Shown piece after piece: positions 1,799 through 21,367 of a stretch of 37,057 nt of DNA; positions within the stretch are counted from its first letter, which is position 1; each line of letters starts with the position of its first letter. The position numbers were made by a program, and so were the translations under genes. The stretch covers positions 1-37,057 of the IMG/VR virus record IMGVR_UViG_3300026519_000547. One strand, written 5' to 3'. The notes beneath the pieces are model-generated. The model was not told the DNA's origin. It made no database searches and was given only the letters and a program-made list of their open reading frames with translations. This DNA comes from a virus.

Positions 1799-3837
1799 AG
1801 GAATGGTTCTCCGCAAAAGAACTTGCCGGGTTGCCGGGGATGCCGGTAACTGTTAGTGGTGTGATTCGGGTTGCCAAGCGCGAAAACTGGCGCTCCCGCA
1901 AGCGCCAGGGCCGCGGCGGCGGACGCGAATATCACCTCAATAGCCTGCCTCCAGAAACCCAGTCCCATCTTGGCGCCAGGAGGCTGATGGATCTGGCGAC
2001 GGATCTTCCTCTTCCAGGGCCGAAGCCCTTCGACCCCTTGGTGCATCTTGCTGCCGACGGGGATCTGACGGACCGGCAGCGGCGCGAGCGGGACGCGAGG
2101 GCTCAGGTGCTGGCGGCGGTGGAACGGATGCGGATGGAAGCCGAATGCACGCGAAAGGAGGCGCTGACGGCGTTGCTGACGACCGCGCGCGCAGGAGAAG
2201 CGCCGGCGGAACTGATCGCCGCGCTCAAGGTAGCGAAGGATCCGCGCGGGCGGCGGAGCGACAATCCGTTTCCATCCGTCAGAACCTTGAAACGCTGGCT
2301 TGGACAGGCAGATCTGGCTCCGAAGGTGCCGCAGAAAGACATGACGTTGCCGCCTTGGGCGGAGGCATTCCTGGAATGTTACCGGCGACCAGAAAAACCT
2401 TCGGTGGCGGCGGCCTATCGCCAGGCGTGCGCTGTCTGGCCGCCAGGTCAGCGGCCAAGCATCCATCAGGTGCGGCGGTTGCTGAAGAAGTTGGGTACGG
2501 CGGCGCGGGAGAGCGGCCGGCGTGGCCCGGTGGAGTTGAAGGCGGTGCTGCCGTTCGTTCGGCGCGGCTTCGAGGATCTGCTGCCGAACGACATCTGGAG
2601 CGCCGATGGCCATACTTTTGATGCCGAAGTCCAGCATCCCTTGCACGGACGGCCATTTCGGCCAGAGATCACCTCGGTGATCGACATTCGCACCCGGCGG
2701 GTGGTGGGTTGGAGCGTGGCCCTGGCTGAATCTGCCCAAGCGGTGGCCGATGCCTTGCGGCGGGGTATCGAGGTGTGCGGGGTGCCGGTGTGGTGGTATG
2801 TGGACAACGGCTCCGGTTACAAGAACCAGATGATCGCCGATCCCGCCACCGGGATTTGCGGCCGGCTGGGCATCCAGATCACCCACAGCCTGCCTTATAA
2901 CTCCCAGGCGCGCGGGGTGATCGAACGGCTGCATCAGACACTGTGGGTGACGGCGGCCAAGGATCTGCCCGGGTTCGTGGGCAAGGAGATGGATCGCCAG
3001 GCGCGTCTGGAACGGTTCAAGATCAGCCGGAAGGCATTGAAGCAAGGCGGCGCGATGCCGCTGATCCCGTGGGAGACGTTCCTGGATTTCTGCCGCGAGC
3101 GGGTGGACGCCTACAACGCCAGCCCTCATCGCAGTCTCGGCGGATTGTCCCCGGATGAGGCGTGGACGCGGCACGTGGAGCATGGCTGGCGCCAGCAAAC
3201 GATCCCTGACGAGGTGCTGACGACCCTGTTCCGCCCCCGGGTGACGCGGGCGCTGCGTCGGTGCGAAGTGCAATTGTTCGGAAACCTCTACTTCAACCTG
3301 GATCTGGTGGAGTTGCACGGCATGGAAGTCCAGGTGGCCTATGACATCCACGACCCGAACACGGTGTGGGTGTACGACCAGGACGGCCGTTACATCGCCG
3401 ATATGGCGTGGAACGGCAATCGTCAGACCTATCTGCCGGTTTCGGCTGAAGACCGGGAGAAACAAAAACGGGCGTTGGGAAGGTTGCAGCGTCTGGACAG
3501 CAAGAAGCAGGAGGTGCTCGAGGAGCTGAAGGGACAGCCGGTAATCGATTTGGAGGCGATGCGAGCGCGGCCCATGATCGGCGGGCGGCCGCTGGAGATC
3601 GGCAAGCAGGCGTCGGAGAAGGCGGACAAGCAACCGAAAAAACCGCGCTGCCGCAGCGAGATGAAGCCGGAGGAAGTGATGGCGGAATGGGACGCCATCG
3701 ACGCCCGGATCCGAGGCGGGGAAACGGTTTCGGAGGCGGACGCCCGCTGGCACGAGATGTTCCAGGGGCATCCGATATGGAAGGCCGAAATGAAGCGGCG
3801 CGGGAAGCCGCTGGATTTTAACGAGGCCGCCTGCTGA
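1795..3837 (+). CDS. A: Mu-type DDE transposase (MuA-like)
   Basis: This 680-residue transposase cuts and joins phage ends during integration and replicative transposition. The N-terminus (about residues 1-60, WFSAKELAGLPGMPVT) is the Mu end-binding winged-helix domain. The integrase core carries the catalytic triad D271 (WSADGH), D337 (YVDNGS) and E377 (VIERLH), close to D269/D336/E392 of MuA. The rest is the Mu-type C-terminal region, ending in a basic, proline- and lysine-rich segment that may contact the B protein. The length is near that of MuA (663). Translation starts at a TTG overlapping the previous stop (TTGA), with GGGGAG 8 bp upstream. No frame disruption or missing catalytic residue is seen. 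Confidence 0.97.
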   Translation: MKEWFSAKELAGLPGMPVTVSGVIRVAKRENWRSRKRQGRGGGREYHLNSLPPETQSHLGARRLMDLATDLPLPGPKPFDPLVHLAADGDLTDRQRRERDARAQVLAAVERMRMEAECTRKEALTALLTTARAGEAPAELIAALKVAKDPRGRRSDNPFPSVRTLKRWLGQADLAPKVPQKDMTLPPWAEAFLECYRRPEKPSVAAAYRQACAVWPPGQRPSIHQVRRLLKKLGTAARESGRRGPVELKAVLPFVRRGFEDLLPNDIWSADGHTFDAEVQHPLHGRPFRPEITSVIDIRTRRVVGWSVALAESAQAVADALRRGIEVCGVPVWWYVDNGSGYKNQMIADPATGICGRLGIQITHSLPYNSQARGVIERLHQTLWVTAAKDLPGFVGKEMDRQARLERFKISRKALKQGGAMPLIPWETFLDFCRERVDAYNASPHRSLGGLSPDEAWTRHVEHGWRQQTIPDEVLTTLFRPRVTRALRRCEVQLFGNLYFNLDLVELHGMEVQVAYDIHDPNTVWVYDQDGRYIADMAWNGNRQTYLPVSAEDREKQKRALGRLQRLDSKKQEVLEELKGQPVIDLEAMRARPMIGGRPLEIGKQASEKADKQPKKPRCRSEMKPEEVMAEWDAIDARIRGGETVSEADARWHEMFQGHPIWKAEMKRRGKPLDFNEAAC

Positions 3838-3885
3838 GACGGAGCCGGCGGCCCCAAGATGGTATGAACGAAGGAGGAAATGATA

Positions 3886-4626
3886 ATGCCAATCGCTGAA
3901 ATACACAACATGCAGCTGGCGCGTGCGGCGCTGGAGACGGTGCAATCGAGATCGCGCGGCCTGCCCGGGCTCGCGGTGATCTACGGACCCGCCGGATGGG
4001 GCAAGACGACGGCCCTGACCACGGTCGCGAATCAGACCCGGGCCTATTACATTCAGATGCGCAGCGCATGGGGACGAAAGAGCTTCCTGGAGCATTTGAT
4101 GGTGGCCATGGGGCTTGCGGACGGGCGCAGGGTGATGGCAGGTAAGAGCATCGGGACCATATCCCAAATGCTGGACCAGATCGCCGAGCAGCTGGCCTTG
4201 TCGGACCGCCCCTTGCTCATCGATGAGGCGGATTTCCTGATCAAATCGGACGGCATGGCTGAATTGCTGCGGGACGTATACGAGGCGTCCGGAGCCGCCA
4301 TCGTTCTGTCCGGAGAAGAGATGATGCCGGCGAAGATGGCGCGCTGGGAGCGGCTGCATTCGCGGGTGTTGGGCTGGATCCCGGCGCAACCGGTCAATCT
4401 GGAGGACGCCAAACTGTTGGCTCCGGTGTATTGCAGACTGCCGGTCGCAGACGACTTTCTGGCGTACCTGGTGAAAAACGCCGGCGGATCTGTGCGGCGT
4501 GTTTGCGTCAATCTGTCACAGGCTCAGGACGTGGCGATGCTGGAGGGATGGGAGCAGATCGATCGGAAGACTTGGGGCGAGCGGCCGATCTACACCGGCG
4601 AAGCGCCGGCAAGGGGGGCGCGATGA
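3886..4626 (+). CDS. B: MuB-like AAA+ ATPase, target-DNA activator
   Basis: This 246-residue AAA+ protein should bind target DNA, stimulate the A transposase and give target immunity. Walker A is GPAGWGKTT (about residues 34-42), Walker B is LLIDEAD, and a sensor-like IVLSGEE follows. The C-terminus matches the small helical MuB domain (GGSVRRVCVNLSQA). It is shorter than MuB (312) because the N-terminal HTH domain is absent. An ATG at 3880 is only 2 bp from the AAGGAGG at 3871-3877, whereas 3886 is 8 bp away, so 3886 is chosen. It follows A after a 48-bp gap. Confidence 0.95.
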   Translation: MPIAEIHNMQLARAALETVQSRSRGLPGLAVIYGPAGWGKTTALTTVANQTRAYYIQMRSAWGRKSFLEHLMVAMGLADGRRVMAGKSIGTISQMLDQIAEQLALSDRPLLIDEADFLIKSDGMAELLRDVYEASGAAIVLSGEEMMPAKMARWERLHSRVLGWIPAQPVNLEDAKLLAPVYCRLPVADDFLAYLVKNAGGSVRRVCVNLSQAQDVAMLEGWEQIDRKTWGERPIYTGEAPARGAR

Positions 4627-9296: not shown

Positions 9297-9920
9297 ATGT
9301 CAGAACTCATTCCTTTCTCATATGAATCCCACGTGCTTCGTGTTGAGCCGGACGTGGACGGAGAGCCAATCTTCCACGCCAATGACCTGTGCGCCCTTTT
9401 GGGATACAAGAACCCGCGTGATGCCGTGCGCCGACACGTCGAGGAGGATGACGTCGTGAAACGCGACGTCATCGATTCCCTGGGCCGCACCCAGATGGCC
9501 AACTGGGTACGCGAACCCGGCATGTGGTCGCTGATACTCGGCTCCGAGACAGAACAGGCCAAGCGGATCAAACGCTGGGTCACGTCCGAGGTCCTGCCAC
9601 AGATCCGCAAGACCGGCGGCTACCAGGTGGATCCGGACACCATCGCCATCCCCAAGGACGAATACATCGCCCTGCTGGAAACCCAGGTGGCGGCGCTCAA
9701 GGCAAAAACATCCTTCCAGCCAGGCCCCCGCGCCTGGACGGAAGAGGAGGACAGGCAGCTCATAGAGCTGCGCCGCCAGGGGCTTGGGTTCACCCGGATC
9801 GGCTACCGTCTGGGGCGCAGCGAGAGCAGTTGCAAGCATCGCTGGCAGCGACTCAGTCTGCGCCATGCCGCCGTCTTGGAGCAGCAGGGCGAAATGTTCA
9901 CCCAAGGAGGTGCGGCATGA
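9297..9920 (+). CDS. ant: Bro-N antirepressor with C-terminal SANT/HTH-like domain
   Basis: This 207-residue protein should counter repression. Residues ~8-105 form a Bro-N domain (IFHANDLCALLGYKNPRDAV ... GMWSLILGSETEQAKRIKRW, then VTSEVLPQIRKTGGY), the family used by P1/P22-type antirepressors. After a short coiled segment, residues ~144-188 (AWTEEEDRQLIELRRQG ... RIGYRLGRSESSCKHRW) resemble a Myb/SANT-like HTH. TAGGAG is 7 bp before the ATG. The c4-type RNA and its target immediately upstream predict post-transcriptional silencing in the lysogen. Confidence 0.88.
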   Translation: MSELIPFSYESHVLRVEPDVDGEPIFHANDLCALLGYKNPRDAVRRHVEEDDVVKRDVIDSLGRTQMANWVREPGMWSLILGSETEQAKRIKRWVTSEVLPQIRKTGGYQVDPDTIAIPKDEYIALLETQVAALKAKTSFQPGPRAWTEEEDRQLIELRRQGLGFTRIGYRLGRSESSCKHRWQRLSLRHAAVLEQQGEMFTQGGAA

Positions 9921-12656: not shown

Positions 12657-14351
12657 GTGGCTCCACGTCCGCGACGAATCGCCCTGCCGCCGGGCGTCAA
12701 GCCCCGCACGCCTTTTGAGCTCGACATGGGCAACCCCCTTGCGCGCGAGCTACGGCTGTTCCTGCCGCTCGCGGAGCGCGCCGGAACGCCGAGGGACGCT
12801 GCGGCGAACGTCCAGGTCGATACTTACAACCCGGCGCTGTGCGATTGGAGGCCGGGAGACGCGCTGTTCATCGCGCAAGCCGCAAGCACGGCTGACCTGC
12901 CCGCGTTGTCGACTGCACTGGGCCGGACGTACACAGACTTAACCTCGTACTCGTTTACCGCGTGGCTTGCCTTGCACACCCTGGCGGTGAACTACAACCG
13001 CGCCGCGTATGTCGTGGAGTCCACGACTGGAGGGGACAGGTTCGGGTTCCAGCGTCTTAACGGCGCCTTGCAGCTTGACTCCAACGGCGCAGCGCCAGGC
13101 ATAGACGGGCCTACGGTCGTGCAAGACGAGTGGTATCTATGCACTGGAGTGCATGATGCTGACACCTCCACTGTGACGTTCTACGTCAACGGAGGGCTGG
13201 TGGGTAGCGGCTCGGTGACAAAGCCGTGGCTCCTGAACAACATCGGCGTGTTGATGTTGGCGACTTCCGAAACGGGGACCACGTACGGCATGCAGGACCA
13301 GAGCCACCGGCTGGTCATGCTGCACGACCGTGCGCTTTCTGCGGCCGAGGTCAAGCGGCTGCACGAAGATCCATACGCGCCGATCCGCAAGCGGCGGGTG
13401 TTTGTGCCGGTTGCTGCCGCCGCGCAGACCGATCTTTCCGGCGCGGCACAGTCATCCGCAACTGGCCAGGCATCGCTCACGGCCGACGTGCCCATCTCCG
13501 GCGCCGCGGTGTCCGTGGCGTCCGCATCCGGCGGGCTGGCTTCATCCGTTCCGTTGACGGGCGCCGGTTACGCTGCGTCCATCGGCTCGGCATCGCTTCA
13601 GGCAGGCGCCGATCTTTCCGGCGCAGCCCAGGCGCAGGCTTCAGGTTCCGGGTCGGTGGCGTTGTCCGTCCGTCTGGACGGGGCGGCCGTCGCCGCCGCA
13701 ATTGCCCAGGCGGCGCTGTCGGCCGGTGTCGATCTGTCGGGTCAGGCTGCGGCTGGCTCTGGTGGATCCGGGGCGCTTTCGACAGGCGCCGATCTTTCCG
13801 GTGACGCCCAGGCGCAGGCGGCAGGTTCAGGCAGTATCACGATCCAGGTGACGCTGGACGGCAGCGCGATTTCGGAGGCGCTGGCATCGGCTGGGCTCGA
13901 CTCCGGTTCCGGCGATCTTTCCGGCGCGGCTGCGGCGGGCGCTTCGGGTGCGGCGGCGATGATCATGGACGTGCCGGTCGCAGGATCGGCCGCCTCCGTT
14001 TCGTCCGCCGACGGCTCGCTGTCGGCGATTCTGCCGCTGCGTTCGGTCGCGGTATCCGGTTCCAGCGCGACCGGCGGCCTGACGGTACAGGCCGGGCTGG
14101 ACGGCCAAGCGGTCGCCAACGCCATGGCATCCGGAGTGTTGGCGGTGGATGCCGGGTCCACGCTCAGCGGTGATGCGGTCGCAGAATCGGCAGGGTCAGG
14201 CGTGTTGTCGCTGCGGTTGACGCTGAATGGGGGGGCGCTGGCAAATGCTGTGGCGTCTGCGATGCTGACCGGCACGTTGGATGCGCTGGTGGTGCGGCGC
14301 TGGACAGTTTCCGCCGTCCGACGCGACTTTACGGTGAGGGCGAGGGGATGA
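12657..14351 (+). CDS. fibre-like protein: LamG domain plus ~14 Ala/Gly/Ser repeats
   Basis: This 564-residue protein starts at a GTG. Residues ~75-235 fit a LamG/concanavalin-like domain: YSFTAWLALHTLAVNYN, EWYLCTGVHD, TFYVNGGLVGSGSV and the closing HDRALSAAEVKRLHEDPYAP. From ~258 to 535 there are about fourteen ~20-residue units of the form DLSGAAQAQASGSGSVALSV, a possible beta-solenoid or rod. The end is basic (VRRDFTVRARG). The domain pair suggests a glycan-binding head on an extended stalk, so adsorption is likely. Position between lysis and packaging genes is unusual for a fibre. Confidence 0.8.
   Translation: MAPRPRRIALPPGVKPRTPFELDMGNPLARELRLFLPLAERAGTPRDAAANVQVDTYNPALCDWRPGDALFIAQAASTADLPALSTALGRTYTDLTSYSFTAWLALHTLAVNYNRAAYVVESTTGGDRFGFQRLNGALQLDSNGAAPGIDGPTVVQDEWYLCTGVHDADTSTVTFYVNGGLVGSGSVTKPWLLNNIGVLMLATSETGTTYGMQDQSHRLVMLHDRALSAAEVKRLHEDPYAPIRKRRVFVPVAAAAQTDLSGAAQSSATGQASLTADVPISGAAVSVASASGGLASSVPLTGAGYAASIGSASLQAGADLSGAAQAQASGSGSVALSVRLDGAAVAAAIAQAALSAGVDLSGQAAAGSGGSGALSTGADLSGDAQAQAAGSGSITIQVTLDGSAISEALASAGLDSGSGDLSGAAAAGASGAAAMIMDVPVAGSAASVSSADGSLSAILPLRSVAVSGSSATGGLTVQAGLDGQAVANAMASGVLAVDAGSTLSGDAVAESAGSGVLSLRLTLNGGALANAVASAMLTGTLDALVVRRWTVSAVRRDFTVRARG
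13427..14265 (+). repeat. tandem ~60-bp coding repeats in the fibre stalk
   Basis: GATCTTTCCGGCG-type starts recur at 13430, 13610, 13790 and 13914, and ~60-bp units encode [D/L]xSGxAxAxAxGSGxLxxxV. Some paired units are nearly identical (13607-13650 and 13787-13830), so unit number could change by recombination. Confidence 0.75.
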
Positions 14352-14965: not shown

Positions 14966-15463
14966 ATGGCGTTTTCAGAGGAAATCCGGGACAAGGTTCG
15001 CAACTACTACGTGCATCAGTGCCTGCCGATCGATGAGGCATCACGTCTGGCCGGGGTATCGGCGCATAGCGGCCGGCGCTGGAAGAAAGCGGCGAAGGAG
15101 CGCGGGGATGATTGGGACCGTAGCCGGGCGGCGTCGTTCATGGCTGGGCAGGGAGCTGAGGGGGTGATGCATGACGTGCTCTCCAAGCTTGTGGTGCTGA
15201 CCAATTCGACGCTCGAGGCGCTGCAAACCGCCGAGATCGATCCCGTGGTCCGTGTCGAGGCGATCTCGCGGCTGTCGGACGCTTACAACAAGACCGCCAA
15301 CGCGGTCACGAAGACCACGCCGAAACTGTCGGAACTGGCGGTGGCGATGAAGGTGCTGGATCGGTTGTCGAAATTCGTGGCGGTTGAGTATCCACATCAT
15401 CTGGAGGCATTCGCTGAGATTCTGGGCCCGTTCGGCAAGTACATTTCCAGAGAGTTGGGATGA
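14966..15463 (+). CDS. terminase small subunit (DUF1804)
   Basis: This 165-residue protein matches the DUF1804/Mu gp27-type terminase small subunit: an N-terminal helix-turn-helix (IRDKVRNYYVHQCLPIDEA, then RLAGVSAHSGRRWKKAAKERG) and a helical C-terminal multimerisation region (AISRLSDAYNKTANAVTK ... KVLDRLSKFVAVEYP). It recognises phage DNA for packaging with the large subunit, whose start overlaps its stop. Confidence 0.9.
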   Translation: MAFSEEIRDKVRNYYVHQCLPIDEASRLAGVSAHSGRRWKKAAKERGDDWDRSRAASFMAGQGAEGVMHDVLSKLVVLTNSTLEALQTAEIDPVVRVEAISRLSDAYNKTANAVTKTTPKLSELAVAMKVLDRLSKFVAVEYPHHLEAFAEILGPFGKYISRELG

Positions 15464-17043
15464 TCGATCGGCGCGAGTTTCTGCGCGATCTGGAGCGACT
15501 CAGCAAGCAGCTGCGGCGCAGGATCGAGGCGGAAGTGGACGGATTCGCTCCCGACCGAGAGAGCAAGGAAAAGCGGCGCGCTAAATCGACCAGCGACTTC
15601 CGCTACTTCGCCAGGACCTATTTCCCGCACTATCTGTCGCGCGGCGAAAGCCTTGTCCACCGATGGATATTTAACCAGCTGCCGAAGATCGTCGATGCGA
15701 AAGAGAGCCGGCAAATGGCGCTTGCGGCGCCGCGCGGCGAGGCGAAATCCACTTTGGTGTCGCTGATCTTCGTGATCTGGTGCGTGCTGACAGGGCGCAA
15801 GCGTTACATCATGATCGCCATGGATACTTTCGACCAGGCAGCGGTGATGCTGGAGTCGATCCGCGCCGAACTGGAGGTCAATCCACGCCTGTTGGCGGAT
15901 TTCGAGGCCGGAACGGGCGTCGGGGAGGTATGGAATGCAGGGGTAATGGTGACGCGCGGTAACGCGAAGATCGAGGCGGTGGGTTCCGGCAAACGCATAC
16001 GCGGCCGCCGACACGGTCCCTGGCGGCCCGACCTGTTCATCGGCGACGATCTGGAGAACGACGAGAATGTCCGTACGCCGGCGCAGCGCGACAAATTGCA
16101 GGGTTGGATATCGAAGGCGGTGCTGAAGCTCGGCGGAGCCGGGGAGAAGTTCGACGTGATCATCGTCGGAACGGTACTGCATTACGATTCCGTTCTGGCT
16201 CGGCTGCTGAAAAACCCCTTGTGGCGCGGCAACCGCTTCCGCGCGCTGATCCGTCCGCCGGACAGAATGGACTTGTGGGACCGCTGGGAGGCGGTGCTGA
16301 AAAGCGAGGGCGAGGCGGCCGCCAGGGCGTTTTATCAGGCACGGAAAAAGAAGATGGAGGCTGGCGCGAAGGTGTCGTGGCCGGAGGCCCGACCCCTATA
16401 CGAACTGATGACGATCCGCGCCCGGGACGGACACGCAGCCTTCGATTCGGAGCTGCAGAACGAGCCGGTCAGTCTCGAGGATGCGCCATTCGCGCGTTGT
16501 CTGCATTATTGGACCGAGCTCCCGGAGGGGATGATTTCTTATGGCGCGGTCGATCCTTCGTTGGGCATCAAGGGTGCCGGACGGGATCCGTCGGCGATCC
16601 TGGTGGGTGGTTTCGATCCCCTTTCCGGCGTTTTGTACGTTCTGGCCGCGGACATCCGCAGGCGGACGCCGGACCGGATCATCGAGGACGTGATCGCGCT
16701 GCAGATACGGCACGGCTGCCTGTTGTGGGCGGTGGAAGCGGTGCAGTTTCAGGAATTCCTGCGCACTGAGCTGATGAAGCGAGGCGCGGCGCGTGGAGTT
16801 CCGGTGCCGGCGCGGGCGGTTAAGCCGATCGCAGACAAGCAACTGCGCATCGAGGCGCTGCAGCCGCACATGGAGGCGGGCCAGATCCTGCTGCATCCTT
16901 CCCAGACGACGCTTATAGAGCAGTTGCTGCATTTTCCCAAGGCCGATCACGACGACGGCCCGGATGCCCTGCAGATGCTCTGGATGCTGGCGGTTTCCGG
17001 CAACCGAAGAACCCATGAGGGAGTCAGGCTGAAATGGTTGTAA
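15460..17043 (+). CDS. terminase large subunit
   Basis: This 527-residue packaging motor and nuclease has an adenine/Walker A region ALAAPRGEAKSTLVSLIF, Walker B PDLFIGDDLEND, a coupling region around VIIVGTVLHYDSVLARLL, and a C-terminal RNase-H-like nuclease starting at YGAVDPSLGI, with acidic residues in WAVEAVQ and DDGPDALQM. It is a headful-type large terminase like Mu gp28. It overlaps the small subunit upstream and the portal downstream. Confidence 0.95.
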   Translation: MIDRREFLRDLERLSKQLRRRIEAEVDGFAPDRESKEKRRAKSTSDFRYFARTYFPHYLSRGESLVHRWIFNQLPKIVDAKESRQMALAAPRGEAKSTLVSLIFVIWCVLTGRKRYIMIAMDTFDQAAVMLESIRAELEVNPRLLADFEAGTGVGEVWNAGVMVTRGNAKIEAVGSGKRIRGRRHGPWRPDLFIGDDLENDENVRTPAQRDKLQGWISKAVLKLGGAGEKFDVIIVGTVLHYDSVLARLLKNPLWRGNRFRALIRPPDRMDLWDRWEAVLKSEGEAAARAFYQARKKKMEAGAKVSWPEARPLYELMTIRARDGHAAFDSELQNEPVSLEDAPFARCLHYWTELPEGMISYGAVDPSLGIKGAGRDPSAILVGGFDPLSGVLYVLAADIRRRTPDRIIEDVIALQIRHGCLLWAVEAVQFQEFLRTELMKRGAARGVPVPARAVKPIADKQLRIEALQPHMEAGQILLHPSQTTLIEQLLHFPKADHDDGPDALQMLWMLAVSGNRRTHEGVRLKWL

Positions 17044-18353
17044 ATACGCATTCCGACACCTTTTTGCTGGATGCCTATTCCGGCGCGGGCGGATTCGCCA
17101 ACGGTGGTTATTTGGTCAGACACCCCAGGGAAAGCGAGGAAAAGCTGGCGCGGCGGAAAGCCTTGGCGATCTATCCTAATTTTGTCCGCAAGAGCGTGAA
17201 CACGTATCTGGGCTTTCTGTGGCGGCGGCCGCCGGTGCGGGAAACGGACGATCTCTACGCGAGGTTCTCGGAGAACGCGGATGGCGCGGGACACGACATC
17301 GATCACGCGATGATGTCCTATCAGCGTCTGGCGATGTTGCTGGGGACGGTCTATGTCATCGTGGACAAGCCTGCCGCCCTGGCCAGAACTAGGGCGGAAG
17401 AGCCGTTGCCTTATCTGTCCGTGAGGCTGCCAGGGCAGCTGATACAGTATCAGTTGGACGAGTTCGGACGTTTCGTATCGGTTGTATTCCAGGAGCAGGA
17501 TGTGGATGCCGGAATGCGTTTCAGGCGCTTTGATCTGTACGGCTGGCAGCTGGCCCTGGACCCGGAAGGCCGGAACGTGATCGATCGTGGCGAATATTCT
17601 CTTGGCAGGCCGCCGGTGGTGCGCTTGCACGCCAATCACCCCATCAATCCAGCGGATGTGAGGGCCGTTTCCTGGGCGCAGGATCTGGCGCGGCTGAATT
17701 TCGATCTATACAACCTGCGCTCGGAGCTGCGCGAACTGCTGCGGTCGCAGACTTTCGCCATCCTCGCCCTGCCCGTTTCGGATCCGGCCGAGCGCGAACG
17801 GCTTACGGATTTGACTGTCTCGACCGAGAACGCCCTGCTCTACGATCCCGCCGGCGGCGGACAGCCGGGCTTCATCGCGCCGCCGGACGGTCCGGTGCGC
17901 ATGTATATGGATCAGATCGCTGCCACAGTGGGGGACATCTACCGGGTGGCCAACCTGGAGTTCGTCGGCGGGGTGCAGCAATCCGGCGTGGCGCTGTCGT
18001 TTCACTTCCAGGAGGCCAACGCGGCGTTGATGACTCTGGCGGATCTGAGCGAACGGGCGGAGATTGAAATCGCCGACCTGGTATATGCTTGGATGGGAAT
18101 GAAGTGGGCCGGGAATATTTCCTATCCGCGCGACTTCAATCTGACTGATCTGGCGCAGGCGTTGGGGCAGGCTCTGGACGCCGTGTCGTTGGATATCTCC
18201 CCAGGATTCGACGCGGCGCTGAAGAAACGCGTGGCGCGGCAGATTCTCGGCGACGACGTGGCGCCGTCTGAAATGGAATCGATCCTGAAGGAGATCGAGG
18301 CGGGTGGCGACTCCGGGCGGCGCCGGATCCAGAGCGCGGCCGGAAATGGTTGA
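17034..18353 (+). CDS. portal protein (DUF4055-like)
   Basis: This 439-residue protein is called the portal from its fold pattern and position directly after terminase. The N-terminal pattern KALAIYPNFVRKSVNTYLGF followed by LWRRPPVRE is that of DUF4055 portals. Further motifs are GTVYVIVDKP, SYNL-type LYNLRSELRELLRSQTF and the late VALSFHFQEANAALMTLADL. It forms the dodecameric DNA channel at the head vertex. Starts at ATG 17034, overlapping terminase by 10 bp. Confidence 0.88.
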   Translation: MVVNTHSDTFLLDAYSGAGGFANGGYLVRHPRESEEKLARRKALAIYPNFVRKSVNTYLGFLWRRPPVRETDDLYARFSENADGAGHDIDHAMMSYQRLAMLLGTVYVIVDKPAALARTRAEEPLPYLSVRLPGQLIQYQLDEFGRFVSVVFQEQDVDAGMRFRRFDLYGWQLALDPEGRNVIDRGEYSLGRPPVVRLHANHPINPADVRAVSWAQDLARLNFDLYNLRSELRELLRSQTFAILALPVSDPAERERLTDLTVSTENALLYDPAGGGQPGFIAPPDGPVRMYMDQIAATVGDIYRVANLEFVGGVQQSGVALSFHFQEANAALMTLADLSERAEIEIADLVYAWMGMKWAGNISYPRDFNLTDLAQALGQALDAVSLDISPGFDAALKKRVARQILGDDVAPSEMESILKEIEAGGDSGRRRIQSAAGNG

Positions 18354-18555
18354 GATTGTCCGCATCGACCGGGACTATCTGGCAGACGCTCGCGCCTTGC
18401 TGGAGGAGGCGGCGAGGATGGAGTTCGAGAACGTCATCGTGTTGGGATTCAAGGATGGGAAGATGCATATTCAGGCCAGCGCCCACCCGGATACGCTGCG
18501 CCTGATGGGCGCGTTGGAGGCGGCCAAGCTGGAGATGTGGTGCGGTGGCGGTTGA
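18346..18555 (+). CDS. small protein between portal and head protein
   Basis: This 69-residue protein is overlapped at both ends by head genes. The pattern NVIVLGFKDGKMHIQASAHPD followed by LRLMGALEAAKLEM is a compact alpha/beta fold often found in small phage head-region proteins. No function is known. It ends CGGG just after the next gene's GTG/ATG region. Confidence 0.7.
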   Translation: MVEIVRIDRDYLADARALLEEAARMEFENVIVLGFKDGKMHIQASAHPDTLRLMGALEAAKLEMWCGGG

Positions 18556-20173
18556 CTGGGCGGCGCTGGAGCGGGACAAATGGCGCATCGTCCGTGAATT
18601 GGAGTCGGATTGGGATCTGGGCGCGGCGGCATTCGCTCGGGAAGTCGTGTCGAGACTCAAGGACAAGGGATGGCGGCTGGATGAGGAGGCAGAGGCCCGT
18701 ATCGATCGGCAATTGGCGGATCTCGAGCAGGGTTTGAGAGACGCCATCGAGACAGCCATAGGCATCGTTGCCGGCAAGGTGGTTGCCGAAGCGATGCGGC
18801 CGCAATTTGTCGCCGAGCAGGTTCGCGACGCGTTCGAGCGGCGCTGGGAAGATGGTGTTCCGCTGTCGAAGCGGCTGTGGAAGTGGCGCGGCGAGATGCT
18901 CGACGGGGTACGGAAAACCATGTCGCGGGGTGCCGCGCTGGGGCGGTCCGCAAACGCCTTGGTTTATGGCCTGCAACGCGCCATCGAGGCGGAAGGCGGG
19001 CGTTATGCCATTCCGGCGAATATCGGCGAGGACTTCTTCAATCCATTGGTCGAGGAAGCGAGGCGGGTCATAGCGACACCTCGCGCCCGCGCGCGGTGGC
19101 GCCGGGCATTGGACATCGCCAGAAACCATTTGGCGCGACTGAAGGAAGGCGGAACCCGGAGACAAGCGGAAGTGGCCGTCAACGCTGTGGCCAGGGCGGT
19201 AAACGAGGGTCGGAACGACCTCCTAGAGGCGGCGCTGCGGTGGTGGGTATACGACCGACATCTGTACAATCTGAGGCGGGTCGCCAGGACCGAGATCGCG
19301 ACCGCCTATCACCGCGCGACCATCGGCGCGACCCGGGACGACGATCTCGTCATCGGCTACCGCTGGCGGTTATCGGCATCCCATCCCGATCCGGACATCT
19401 GCGATTGGTTCGCCGGCATCGAGCTTGGGTTGGGCAAGGGGGTATGGCCCAAGGACCGGGCGCCGGAGGGGAAGGCCCATCCGCACTGCATGTGCGGTCT
19501 GACCCCGGTCACCCGGCCGAACCGGGAACAGGGCGCGCGCGATCCTGGCGAACTACTGGGCGTGCTGTCGGACCGGGAGAAAGCCCGCATCGCTCCGCGC
19601 TGGGCCCGGGACTTGAACGGTTTGGGAATCGATTGGAAGCGGATGATAGATCCCGCAACAGGTTGGTTCGCGCGGAGAAAGGATATCGCCGCCAGGATGG
19701 GCGAGGACAGGTTGCAAGCGATGCAGGCGCTTGGGCGGGCGCTGGATGTGCCTGAATGGGGACGTCCGCGCATTGGCCGCGGGCGCATGCGGCGGGAAAC
19801 GATGGATGTGCTTATGCAGCATCGCAGCGATCCCGTGGTTGCCAAGGCCCTGCGCCAGGCTGAACGTGATGGGCGGGTGGACGGTCTGGTGTTGCATTAT
19901 GTCCGCCGGCGTTACCAGGACGGCGAGCCATTATCCGGCCCAGAAGATTTGAATCGGCGCTTCGAGAGGCTGCTCCAGGGAAGCGGGCATCGGATTTACC
20001 GTCAAGCCCTGGGTGGCGGAACCCGTTTTGCCATATACTCGGAAGAGACCGGATGGGTAGCGGTGGTCGATGCCAGTGGCCGCCGGGTGACCGCATTTAT
20101 AATTGATCCGGATTCCAATCCAGGCGATCTTGGAGAACCGCTATGGCTGATCGGCGAGTTGAAGGCATTTTGA
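18545..20173 (+). CDS. Mu F-like head morphogenesis protein with toxin-like C-terminus
   Basis: This 542-residue protein has three parts. Residues 1-240 are helical. Residues ~245-320 are the Mu gpF-like domain, with RVARTEIATAYHRATI and the metal-binding-like HPHCMCGLTP at ~311-320. Residues ~345-542 are extra; the end contains GTRFAIYSEETGWVAVVDAS followed by GRRVTAFIID, resembling the closing strands of BECR-fold RNases (colicin E5/D, RelE-like) known in polyvalent phage proteins. A copy or two per virion could be injected with DNA. The next gene overlaps by 31 bp and looks like an immunity protein. Head role is well supported; nuclease role is inference. Confidence 0.85.
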   Translation: MAVDWAALERDKWRIVRELESDWDLGAAAFAREVVSRLKDKGWRLDEEAEARIDRQLADLEQGLRDAIETAIGIVAGKVVAEAMRPQFVAEQVRDAFERRWEDGVPLSKRLWKWRGEMLDGVRKTMSRGAALGRSANALVYGLQRAIEAEGGRYAIPANIGEDFFNPLVEEARRVIATPRARARWRRALDIARNHLARLKEGGTRRQAEVAVNAVARAVNEGRNDLLEAALRWWVYDRHLYNLRRVARTEIATAYHRATIGATRDDDLVIGYRWRLSASHPDPDICDWFAGIELGLGKGVWPKDRAPEGKAHPHCMCGLTPVTRPNREQGARDPGELLGVLSDREKARIAPRWARDLNGLGIDWKRMIDPATGWFARRKDIAARMGEDRLQAMQALGRALDVPEWGRPRIGRGRMRRETMDVLMQHRSDPVVAKALRQAERDGRVDGLVLHYVRRRYQDGEPLSGPEDLNRRFERLLQGSGHRIYRQALGGGTRFAIYSEETGWVAVVDASGRRVTAFIIDPDSNPGDLGEPLWLIGELKAF

Positions 20174-20487
20174 AAACCTTGCATGAATTGATTTGGTATA
20201 GCCTGGATTTTGGTCATGGCGCGGAATATCCAGCGATGCGGGATCGCCTGGTCGGTCTGGAATTGACTTCCGATCAGGCTGCCCGTTTGCAAAAACTGGA
20301 CGAATTGGCCATCGACTACATTCTCACCGCCGATTTGAACGACATCTGGCCTGGTCTGCTGGAAGACCGTCCCGACAAGCCGCTGGCGCGGTGGTGGTGG
20401 CATTTGGGGGCGATCCGTGGCGGAGAGTATCCATTGGAGCTGCTGGCGGAACCGCTACGCCGTGCGGTTCTCGACGCGGCCGCCTGA
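20143..20487 (+). CDS. immunity-like protein overlapping the toxin-like gene
   Basis: This 114-residue acidic helical protein starts inside the preceding gene. It is rich in D, E and W, with LDELAIDYILTADLNDIW and a striking RWWWHLGAIRGGEYPLELL near the end, a pattern I associate with contact-dependent or polymorphic-toxin immunity proteins. The overlap would ensure co-translation with the toxin-like C-terminus. Alternatively it is a small head accessory protein. Confidence 0.7.
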   Translation: MADRRVEGILKTLHELIWYSLDFGHGAEYPAMRDRLVGLELTSDQAARLQKLDELAIDYILTADLNDIWPGLLEDRPDKPLARWWWHLGAIRGGEYPLELLAEPLRRAVLDAAA

Positions 20488-20731
20488 GAGCCGATTTGAG
20501 CAGCGTTTTTCCTCATGCCGCTACCTACCCATTCATGCGGACCGTTTCGCGGCGCCACGGCGAAATTAACGCGGGTTTAACGCCATACACAGGCCATGCC
20601 CCGTCCCTGATATCGCCTCCATTCTGATCGCGTCCTGTCCGCCGCGATCGTTTCATACTGAATCCTATCCCGTTTCCACCAGTCCACCCGCCCGTTTAAG
20701 CTTCCATCATCGAGCAATCACGGGATAGACG
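20488..20731. other. 244-bp intergenic region before scaffold
   Basis: No gene over 30 codons with a Shine-Dalgarno was found here. A GCAGCGTTTTTCCTC tract near 20500-20514 may be a weak stop signal, and AT-richer stretches (20565-20580, 20690-20705) could hold a late promoter for scaffold and coat genes, but none is convincing. Confidence 0.5.
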
Positions 20732-21367
20732 ATGGCGGAAGAAAACGACGGAAATCAGCAGCCCAGCCAGGATTCCAACCAAAATTCCAGTCAACAACAG
20801 ACGGGCGGGTCGAATGGCGCAGATTCCGCCGATTCGAACCCGGGCGGTGGGCGTGAAACCCCTGACATTCAGGCCGAGATCCAAAGGGCGTTGCAGTCGC
20901 AACAAGCCGAATTCGTTAATCAGCTCAAGGAAATTACCGGGTTCGAGTCGCTGCAGGCGTTCAAGGAGCATCAGCTGAAGGAACAGGGCAAGCTTCAGGA
21001 GCTGCTTCAGGCCAAGGAGCAGGAGGCGGCCCAGTTTCGCCAGCGTTTCGAGCAAATGGCCGTGCGGGCGCAGGTTTTGCAGGCCGCTTCGGCCGCGGTC
21101 GATGCGGAAGTCGTCCTGGCGCTGCTGGCCCCCGCGGCAAAAGTGGATGGAGACGGAAATGTGACCATCGACGGTCAGCCTGCGGACAAGGCAGTGGAGC
21201 GGCTGCTCAAGGACAAACCCTATCTCGCCAGATCATCCGGCAACCAGGGCTCCGGAAGCCCACAGAACCCATCCGGCGGCAAGCAGATGCCGCGCTCGCA
21301 ATTTCTTGCTCTCAACCCAAAGGACCAATTGGCGTTCGTCCAGTCCGGCGGCGCCGTAACAGACTGA
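20732..21367 (+). CDS. scaffolding protein
   Basis: This 211-residue protein is highly charged and predicted disordered/helical: an N-terminal Asn/Gln/Ser-rich tail, a long coiled-coil segment (residues ~48-115, QLKEQGKLQELLQAKEQEAA) and a polar C-terminus. These are standard scaffold features, and the gene directly precedes the coat gene. No protease motif is seen, so maturation probably releases the scaffold uncleaved, as in P22. Confidence 0.85.
   Translation: MAEENDGNQQPSQDSNQNSSQQQTGGSNGADSADSNPGGGRETPDIQAEIQRALQSQQAEFVNQLKEITGFESLQAFKEHQLKEQGKLQELLQAKEQEAAQFRQRFEQMAVRAQVLQAASAAVDAEVVLALLAPAAKVDGDGNVTIDGQPADKAVERLLKDKPYLARSSGNQGSGSPQNPSGGKQMPRSQFLALNPKDQLAFVQSGGAVTD

Follow-up and report, generated by a model that had tools for sequence, protein, structure and literature searches.

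The MuF head gene and its overlapping neighbour

The stretch of DNA considered here, referred to as the window, is one entire IMG/VR record (IMGVR_UViG_3300026519_000547, 37,057 bases), and the system in question is a pair of overlapping genes in its head region: a gene for a MuF-type head morphogenesis protein with a long C-terminal tail, and a small gene, here called the partner, that begins inside it (Table 1). An earlier note on this DNA had read the tail as a BECR-like toxin and the partner as its immunity gene. Both open reading frames (ORFs) exist as that note described them, and the motifs it named are all present, GTRFAIYSEETGWVAVVD and GRRVTAFIID in the MuF protein and WWWHLGAIRGGEYPLELL in the 114-residue partner.

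The head morphogenesis identity given to the first gene is confirmed by the PHROG match to its core, and residues 1-315 are 43% identical to the MuF protein of a Lamprocystis purpurea prophage. The NCBIfam model TIGR01641 matches the protein weakly (E 0.079, below cut-off) and the Pfam model PF04233 does not match it. The extension beyond the HPHCMCG motif is real, although it comprises 224 residues and not the "about 200" first reported; it is longer than the at least 100 residues by which MuF polymorphic toxins are recognized, and the partner likewise lies within the size (<150 amino acids) and position (directly downstream) of their small downstream ORF. Searched alone, residues 318-542 gave no Pfam, PHROG or NCBIfam family. 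A foreign origin of the tail judged by composition is suggestive at most: the GC content at third codon positions is 0.609 in the tail and 0.623 in the partner, compared with a mean of 0.728 (standard deviation 0.060) across seven late genes (72 windows, each of 128 codons), and the lowest of these late-gene windows (0.5625) falls below both values.

Table 1. Coordinates of the MuF gene, its partner and their features in the window.
Feature	Position	Strand	Evidence
MuF-type head morphogenesis protein with C-terminal candidate toxin tail	18545..20173	+	ORF, GTG start, 542 amino acids; PHROG head morphogenesis families
MuF core, residues 235-325	19247..19519	+	phrog_1657 (head morphogenesis), E 4.3e-30
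HPHCMCG motif, residues 312-318	19478..19498	+	sequence
Linker region, residues 319-414	19499..19786	+	conserved with L. purpurea MuF protein (alignment)
Predicted BECR-fold toxin tail, residues 415-542	19787..20170	+	predicted structure (model m19dce6e577fa) and VIA-align matches
H451 codon, putative active-site His	19895..19897	+	invariant in alignments A6 and A5; helix 33-44 of model
T516 codon, putative active-site Thr, strand 4	20090..20092	+	Ser/Thr in every row of A6 and A5; strand 100-105
GGAG, probable ribosome-binding site of immunity-like gene, within tail-coding sequence	20132..20135	+	7 nucleotides before ATG
Overlap of candidate toxin and immunity-like genes, 31 nucleotides	20143..20173	+	sequence
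Immunity-like gene, WWWHL family, 114 amino acids	20143..20487	+	ORF, ATG start; acidic (net -7); predicted all-helical; behind MuF genes in 8/8 phage/prophage contigs

Predicted fold and candidate active site

The tail (residues 415-542) was modelled with AlphaFold from alignment A6, which holds six tails (those of the window and of L001, L006, L012, L013 and L016, loci described in the next section), and the resulting model has a mean predicted local distance difference test score (pLDDT) of 78 and a predicted template modelling score (pTM) of 0.67. It consists of helices 33-44 and 53-64 followed by a four-stranded meander (strands 68-75, 78-85, 90-95 and 100-105), and helices followed by such a meander are also how the BECR core is described (PMC3482391). 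Structure prediction had been set beforehand as the step that could refute the toxin reading, by yielding a head scaffold domain only; the model of residues 415-542 did not refute it.

Comparison with known structures places the model beside bacterial toxins. Colicin D or toxins of contact-dependent growth inhibition (CDI) took ranks 1, 2, 4, 5, 7 and 8 in a Foldseek search of the PDB (E 0.057 to 0.31), and when VIA-align was run on 989 of Foldseek's 1000 top chains, its first eight entries were all bacterial toxins: 8ey4_A, a CDI toxin of E. coli O32:H37 (Z 8.1, root-mean-square deviation 3.0, 81 aligned residues), four colicin D entries (Z 7.0-7.4), two CdiA NC101 entries (5.4) and CdiA Kp342 (4.4), with an unrelated row following at Z 3.9. 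Two of the entries, 1tfk and 1tfo, are titled merely "ribonuclease with its inhibitor" and were taken to be colicin D. Colicin D, CdiA NC101 and CdiA Kp342 are named as BECR proteins (PMC9086364), and the 8ey4 toxin presumably shares this fold. A profile search of PDB sequences from A6 also placed 8ey4_A first (E 0.001), in an alignment that sets a His of the CDI toxin at the H451 column and a Thr at the T516 column.

The model thus puts H451 and T516 at the positions where BECR RNases keep their His and Ser/Thr. Nine of the ten distinct tails retain both (window, L001, L006, L012, L013, L016 and the stand-alone tails L018, L020 and L021), where the count omits the MuF protein of L007, which is identical to that of L006, and a tail from genome G379 that was left out of the alignment. 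With the predicted fold and these conserved residues the BECR-like character claimed for the tail is supported, and the modelled tail most resembles the colicin D and CdiA tRNase toxins, suggesting that it acts as a BECR-fold RNase.

The partner is predicted to be all-helical (pLDDT 90). No convincing fold match to its model was found in the PDB or BFVD, where a missing match is no sign of a new fold, and no immunity protein in the PDB was found by sequence from the WWWHL partner. Immunity proteins of BECR CdiA toxins share little with one another; one consists entirely of helices, and binding is as a rule at the toxin's active site (PMC9086364). By analogy, the WWWHL partner most likely binds over the active site of the tail. 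All 10 WWWHL partners that were tested are acidic (net -3 to -10). A charge rule for both parts of the module fails, with the tails belonging to those 10 partners ranging from -6 to +4. Literature searches by words, not sequences, gave no paper on the WWWHL partner family and none joining L. purpurea with prophages among the matches listed.

Recurrence of the pair in phages and prophages

A genome-contig scan from the window partner gave two relatives. The first, L001, is a L. purpurea prophage in which the partner follows a MuF gene whose tail is homologous, so that tail and partner recur jointly (36-42% identity); the second, L002, is a partner gene in a Lamprocystis metagenome-assembled genome, with no MuF ORF seen beside it. 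The same L. purpurea prophage was present as a viral contig (L005), and a scan with partner alignments added two further viral contigs, L006 and L007, whose MuF proteins are identical.

Viral contigs were also scanned, independently of MuF, for the DNA pattern of WWWHLDxI, giving 8 loci. Six of the eight (L010, L012, L013, L014, L016 and L017) hold a genuine gene that immediately follows a MuF gene. The other two, L011 and L015, were dropped as partner genes, being chance matches in short frames; unfiltered pattern matches were therefore rejected as proof of pairing, all the more so as L010 and L017 are the already-found contigs of L006 and L007. Pairing beyond chance is upheld both by the joint recurrence in the L. 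purpurea prophage and by the MuF-blind partner motif, which led to a MuF gene at 6/6 real loci.

Altogether, the partner follows and overlaps a MuF gene in 8/8 phage and prophage contigs (window; L001/L005; L006/L010; L007/L017; L012; L013; L014; L016), comprising seven distinct pairs. A start codon in the partner frame precedes the end of the MuF gene in all eight, with an overlap of 4 to 62 nucleotides at the first start. The MuF carriers are of three types. The first comprises the window, L001 and L016, the last of these being related over 85 residues only. The second comprises L006, L012 and L013; L006 and L012 are related at E 5e-84, the Pfam model Phage_Mu_F matches L006 and L013 above cut-off and L012 just below it, and the type hardly matches the window MuF protein (L013, E 0.007). 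The third is L014, in which MuF is fused to a Mu portal protein. Partners from the window, from Lamprocystis and from other Chromatiales form one family with those of L006, L012, L013 and L016 (hhalign probability 99.2%, E 7e-20), whereas the L014 partner was outside this comparison and is linked by the WWWHLD motif only.

Other searches yielded little. By tblastn, neither the window partner nor, subsequently, the L006 partner matched phage or plasmid records, and the window tail matched no phage record at E 1. Scans of viral contigs that started from the window tail or from the N-terminal part of MuF gave no relative, with scan patterns that missed even the L. purpurea prophage, and a scan with tail alignment A5 gave that prophage only.

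Two side observations concern MuF genes met in these searches. In the L. purpurea prophage, an intein (L001:3499-4314; PF14890, E 5e-13, residues 346-617) lies within the HPHC motif of the MuF protein, and nearly the entire intein DNA is an antisense ORF of 269 amino acids (3502-4311, minus strand). Its matches are REase_MTES_1575, a model of restriction nucleases (E 1.9e-8, below cut-off), and models of helix-turn-helix domains; this ORF may encode a homing endonuclease on the strand opposite to the intein. Marinitoga camini virus 2 (L032:1907-3678) encodes a MuF-like protein, annotated as hypothetical, whose tail looks BECR-like (HYVKRRYKD, KSAFP) and is overlapped by a 93-residue gene of another kind, lacking WWWHL and without a family match, which makes it a distant parallel. 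In this eleventh pair tested for charge, the partner is basic (+5).

Stand-alone pairs and orphan partners in bacterial genomes

The order of L. purpurea, the Chromatiales, was sampled with 210 genomes. The partner family occurs in seven of them and the tail in five, and every tail-bearing genome also has the partner (5/5). One of the five is L. purpurea itself, with the MuF-borne form. The remaining four (G374, G377, G379 and G470) carry the tail as a separate small gene, and the partner sits at the end of it, that is, a small candidate toxin gene and a small partner gene outside delivery proteins; the two genes overlap in three of these genomes, and the pair is altered in G379. The immunity gene proposed in the earlier note is supported by this recurrence, downstream of several types of MuF gene as well as of the stand-alone tail.

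The stand-alone tail lies directly behind a large ORF in G374, G377 and G379. In G374 and G377 PADLOC assigns the C-terminal part of this ORF to a type IIG restriction enzyme-methyltransferase (E 4e-27 and 3e-25), and the G379 ORF is equal in length to that of G377 and ends nearly the same way. No such large ORF precedes the tail in G470, where the preceding gene was taken from its sequence to be a valyl-tRNA synthetase. Within the G379 pair (L036:7294-7773; L022), a stop codon occurs near the tail end and the usual start codon of the partner is missing, so the pair seems to be decaying.

Four partner genes without an adjacent tail were found in three genomes (G002, G543 and G377). On one G377 contig (L037, G377:C186), two partner-family genes lie close by on opposite strands with no tail nearby, perhaps forming an immunity cluster. 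Beyond the order, scans of the class and phylum samples with the partner alignments gave G001 only (1/369 and 1/398, respectively).

Interpretation and alternative explanations

The combined pattern of pairing with MuF genes, stand-alone tail-partner pairs and orphan partners is the signature of a toxin-immunity module, and we consider it likely that the window encodes a BECR-fold toxin with a cognate immunity protein, mounted on a head protein. The predicted fold, the conserved His and Thr, the gene pairing, the modularity and the stand-alone and orphan forms support this reading, as do the match of the partner-linked L006 tail to Pfam PBECR3, although below cut-off, and a negative control by tblastn in which 134 phage records match the window MuF protein and none matches the partner at E 0.01. 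RNA cleavage, a tRNA target, neutralisation by the partner, packaging, injection and an ecological benefit are what we infer beyond that, and the whole chain, including the tRNA target and delivery, is put forward tentatively, as somewhat short of an even call.

In the proposed mechanism, the N-terminal part would serve as a MuF minor head protein and the overlapping gene would encode the immunity protein. Toxin and partner would be translated together from one message in the late phase, so that the partner would block the toxin while the producing cell builds virions, and the MuF part would carry the toxin into the head. Having entered the next cell with the DNA, the toxin would cut RNA, probably tRNA as its nearest folds do; a cell could escape by making an immunity protein that matches, whether its gene lies in a related prophage, in a stand-alone pair on the chromosome or as an orphan.

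Expression bears on whom the partner protects. No promoter-like site was found in 19900-20760 by a simple sigma-70 consensus scan, which is weak evidence of absence; the immunity gene is therefore probably expressed with the late genes, first protecting the producing cell. Since the tail is also fused to a late head protein, expression of the pair in a lysogen is unlikely, and the idea that the module spares the producing lysogen, put forward in the earlier note, is unsupported beyond the protection that late expression would give.

Several observations weigh against the toxin-immunity reading. Confidence in the tail model falls to a pLDDT of about 68 around strand 4 and about 55 over the last 18 residues, no Foldseek match reaches an E value below 0.001, and an unrelated hydrogenase protein stands at ranks 3 and 6. 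VIA-align Z scores below about 8 can, by the tool's own warning, reflect a common arrangement; the result carries weight because the eight toxin entries stand together on top. The A6 profile also matches unrelated MHC-like chains (E 0.003-0.006), and because these follow 8ey4_A closely, the link by sequence proves nothing alone. Neither the window tail nor the partner has a usable match in Pfam, NCBIfam, PADLOC or PDB sequences, and no PBECR model of Pfam matches the window tail up to E 1; such a match reaches a relative alone, the partner-linked L006 tail, and lies below cut-off (PBECR3, E 3.7e-5, 24.0 bits compared with a cut-off of 30; PBECR2, E 0.018). The tenth tail, that of L014, has a partner but neither conserved residue. 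Because the partner model lacks a fold match, blocking of the active site by the partner is an analogy. The negative control has its limit in tblastn, which would overlook diverged partners. Finally, tail profiles of the window type and the L006 type match unconvincingly (probability 3.7%, E 0.012), leaving their union in one sequence family unsupported. The partners nevertheless form one family, so a single immunity family accompanies BECR-like tails that have diverged and sit on MuF carriers of several types, which points to module shuffling.

Of the alternatives, the one that survives best is an RNase for early take-over or counter-defence, injected with the DNA to cut host mRNA or defence RNA, with the partner only limiting damage during assembly. 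Its anatomy is that of the toxin-immunity module with another target and purpose, and the two readings are not exclusive. Such a role has been proposed for the PBECR domains of polyvalent proteins (PMC5512222), and killing a new host would be costly for a temperate phage; the nearest folds, however, are toxins of competition systems, and a small downstream gene is a mark of MuF toxins, accompanying 89.4% of 191 MuF toxin genes compared with 25.5% of 952 short MuF genes (PMC5576092). We regard this explanation as possible though unlikely.

Improbable in our view is a catalytically dead, structural tail that contributes to head assembly or to RNA or DNA binding, with the small gene as its dedicated chaperone. 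There is a precedent in Mu gpF, described with an inactive PBECR domain at its C-terminus (PMC5512222), and L014, the portal-MuF fusion with a WWWHL gene, lacks both the His and the Ser/Thr. These residues are nevertheless retained in the window and eight further distinct tails, the tail-partner pair also stands alone outside phages, in a setting without head assembly, and three genomes have between them four partner genes with no adjacent tail; MuF relatives in phage records, moreover, are without a partner match within the sensitivity of tblastn. The last alternative is an addiction module, in which tail and partner stabilise the prophage as type II toxin-antitoxin pairs do and fusion to MuF is a side issue. 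It would suit the stand-alone pairs of four genomes, which look like a toxin-antitoxin module and in three cases immediately follow a type IIG-like restriction gene, but is highly improbable for a toxin fused to a late head protein with no promoter-like site before the partner in the simple consensus scan.

Returning to the toxin-immunity module, its stand-alone and MuF-mounted forms raise the further idea that one module moves between bacterial genomes and phage capsids, residing as a stand-alone pair beside type IIG restriction genes, being mounted on MuF proteins and injected by phages, and being countered by chromosomal stand-alone or orphan immunity genes. This scenario is speculative and quite unlikely; if true, phages and bacteria would be waging an arms race in a shared toxin-immunity currency. 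PMC11699363 describes the biological role of MuF toxins as unknown, and the pair described here offers a small, well-bounded toxin candidate whose putative active-site residues are clear, an immunity family traceable through its motif, and stand-alone and orphan copies. It should thereby be possible to investigate whether an injected capsid toxin arrests non-immune cells and whether a resident partner protects them.

Genomic context of the phage

The window encodes a Mu-like transposase and a DNA transposition protein (PHROG profile search), as well as a tape measure protein and a major tail protein of the Ig type. PHROG matches identify the large terminase, the portal, the scaffold and the major head protein, with the terminase (15460-17043) and portal (17034-18353) genes near the MuF gene and a small ORF (18304-18555) between the portal and MuF genes. 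This gene content is that of a transposable phage with a siphovirus-like head-tail operon, and the transposase and the DNA transposition protein mark it as temperate. Two further genes were noted: a 564-residue protein with a Laminin_G_3/concanavalin A-like lectin domain (12657-14351; E 1.5e-12) upstream of the terminase gene, and an anti-repressor Ant-like protein (9297-9920; phrog_130, E 2e-45) in the early region.

Comparison with known systems

Temperate phages are already known to encode MuF polymorphic toxins followed by a small ORF (Jamet 2017, PMC5576092). The window pair shares with them the MuF N-terminus, a C-terminal extension of more than 100 residues, a small ORF of less than 150 residues directly downstream, the temperate phage and the head operon. 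Many proteobacterial MuF extensions are reported there to lack known domains, and the L. purpurea relative is one such case; the window pair differs in that its tail and its WWWHL immunity family match no Pfam or NCBIfam model. MuF toxins paired with immunity genes, the arrangement that the earlier note proposed for this phage, are a class already known (PMC5576092, PMC11699363, PMC12226406).

BECR domains on MuF proteins have likewise been predicted before (PMC3482391, PMC5512222). The PBECR domains of phage polyvalent and MuF proteins share with the window tail the BECR core, a His in the N-terminal helix, a Ser/Thr in strand 4 and fusion to MuF, whereas the window tail falls outside every PBECR model and the passages of PMC5512222 considered here describe no partner family. 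Tox-Colicin D of the polymorphic toxins also has the BECR fold, with MuF among its delivery systems and ImmD and Imm64 as its immunity families (PMC3482391); WWWHL partners, in contrast, match no family in the Pfam copy used, in which the presence of ImmD and Imm64 is unconfirmed. Colicin D and the CDI toxins (8ey4, NC101 and Kp342) have the fold (Z 8.1 to 4.4) and a small cognate immunity protein in common with the window pair, and EC3006 is one BECR case with an all-helical immunity protein (PMC9086364). These toxins differ in not being delivered by virions, and their sequence identity to the tail is 10-15% by VIA-align.

The MuF toxins Apk2 (PMC12226406) and Bxa (PMC11699363), whose immunity proteins neutralise them at the bench, share the MuF head protein, the C-terminal toxin and adjacent immunity genes. 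Apk2 synthesises (p)ppApp, Bxa acts as an ADP-ribosyltransferase, and each has two immunity proteins, whereas the window pair combines a predicted BECR fold with one partner predicted to be helical. Relative to these systems, the novelty lies in the subfamily to which the tail belongs, in the WWWHL family of immunity-like partners and in the stand-alone pairs next to restriction genes.

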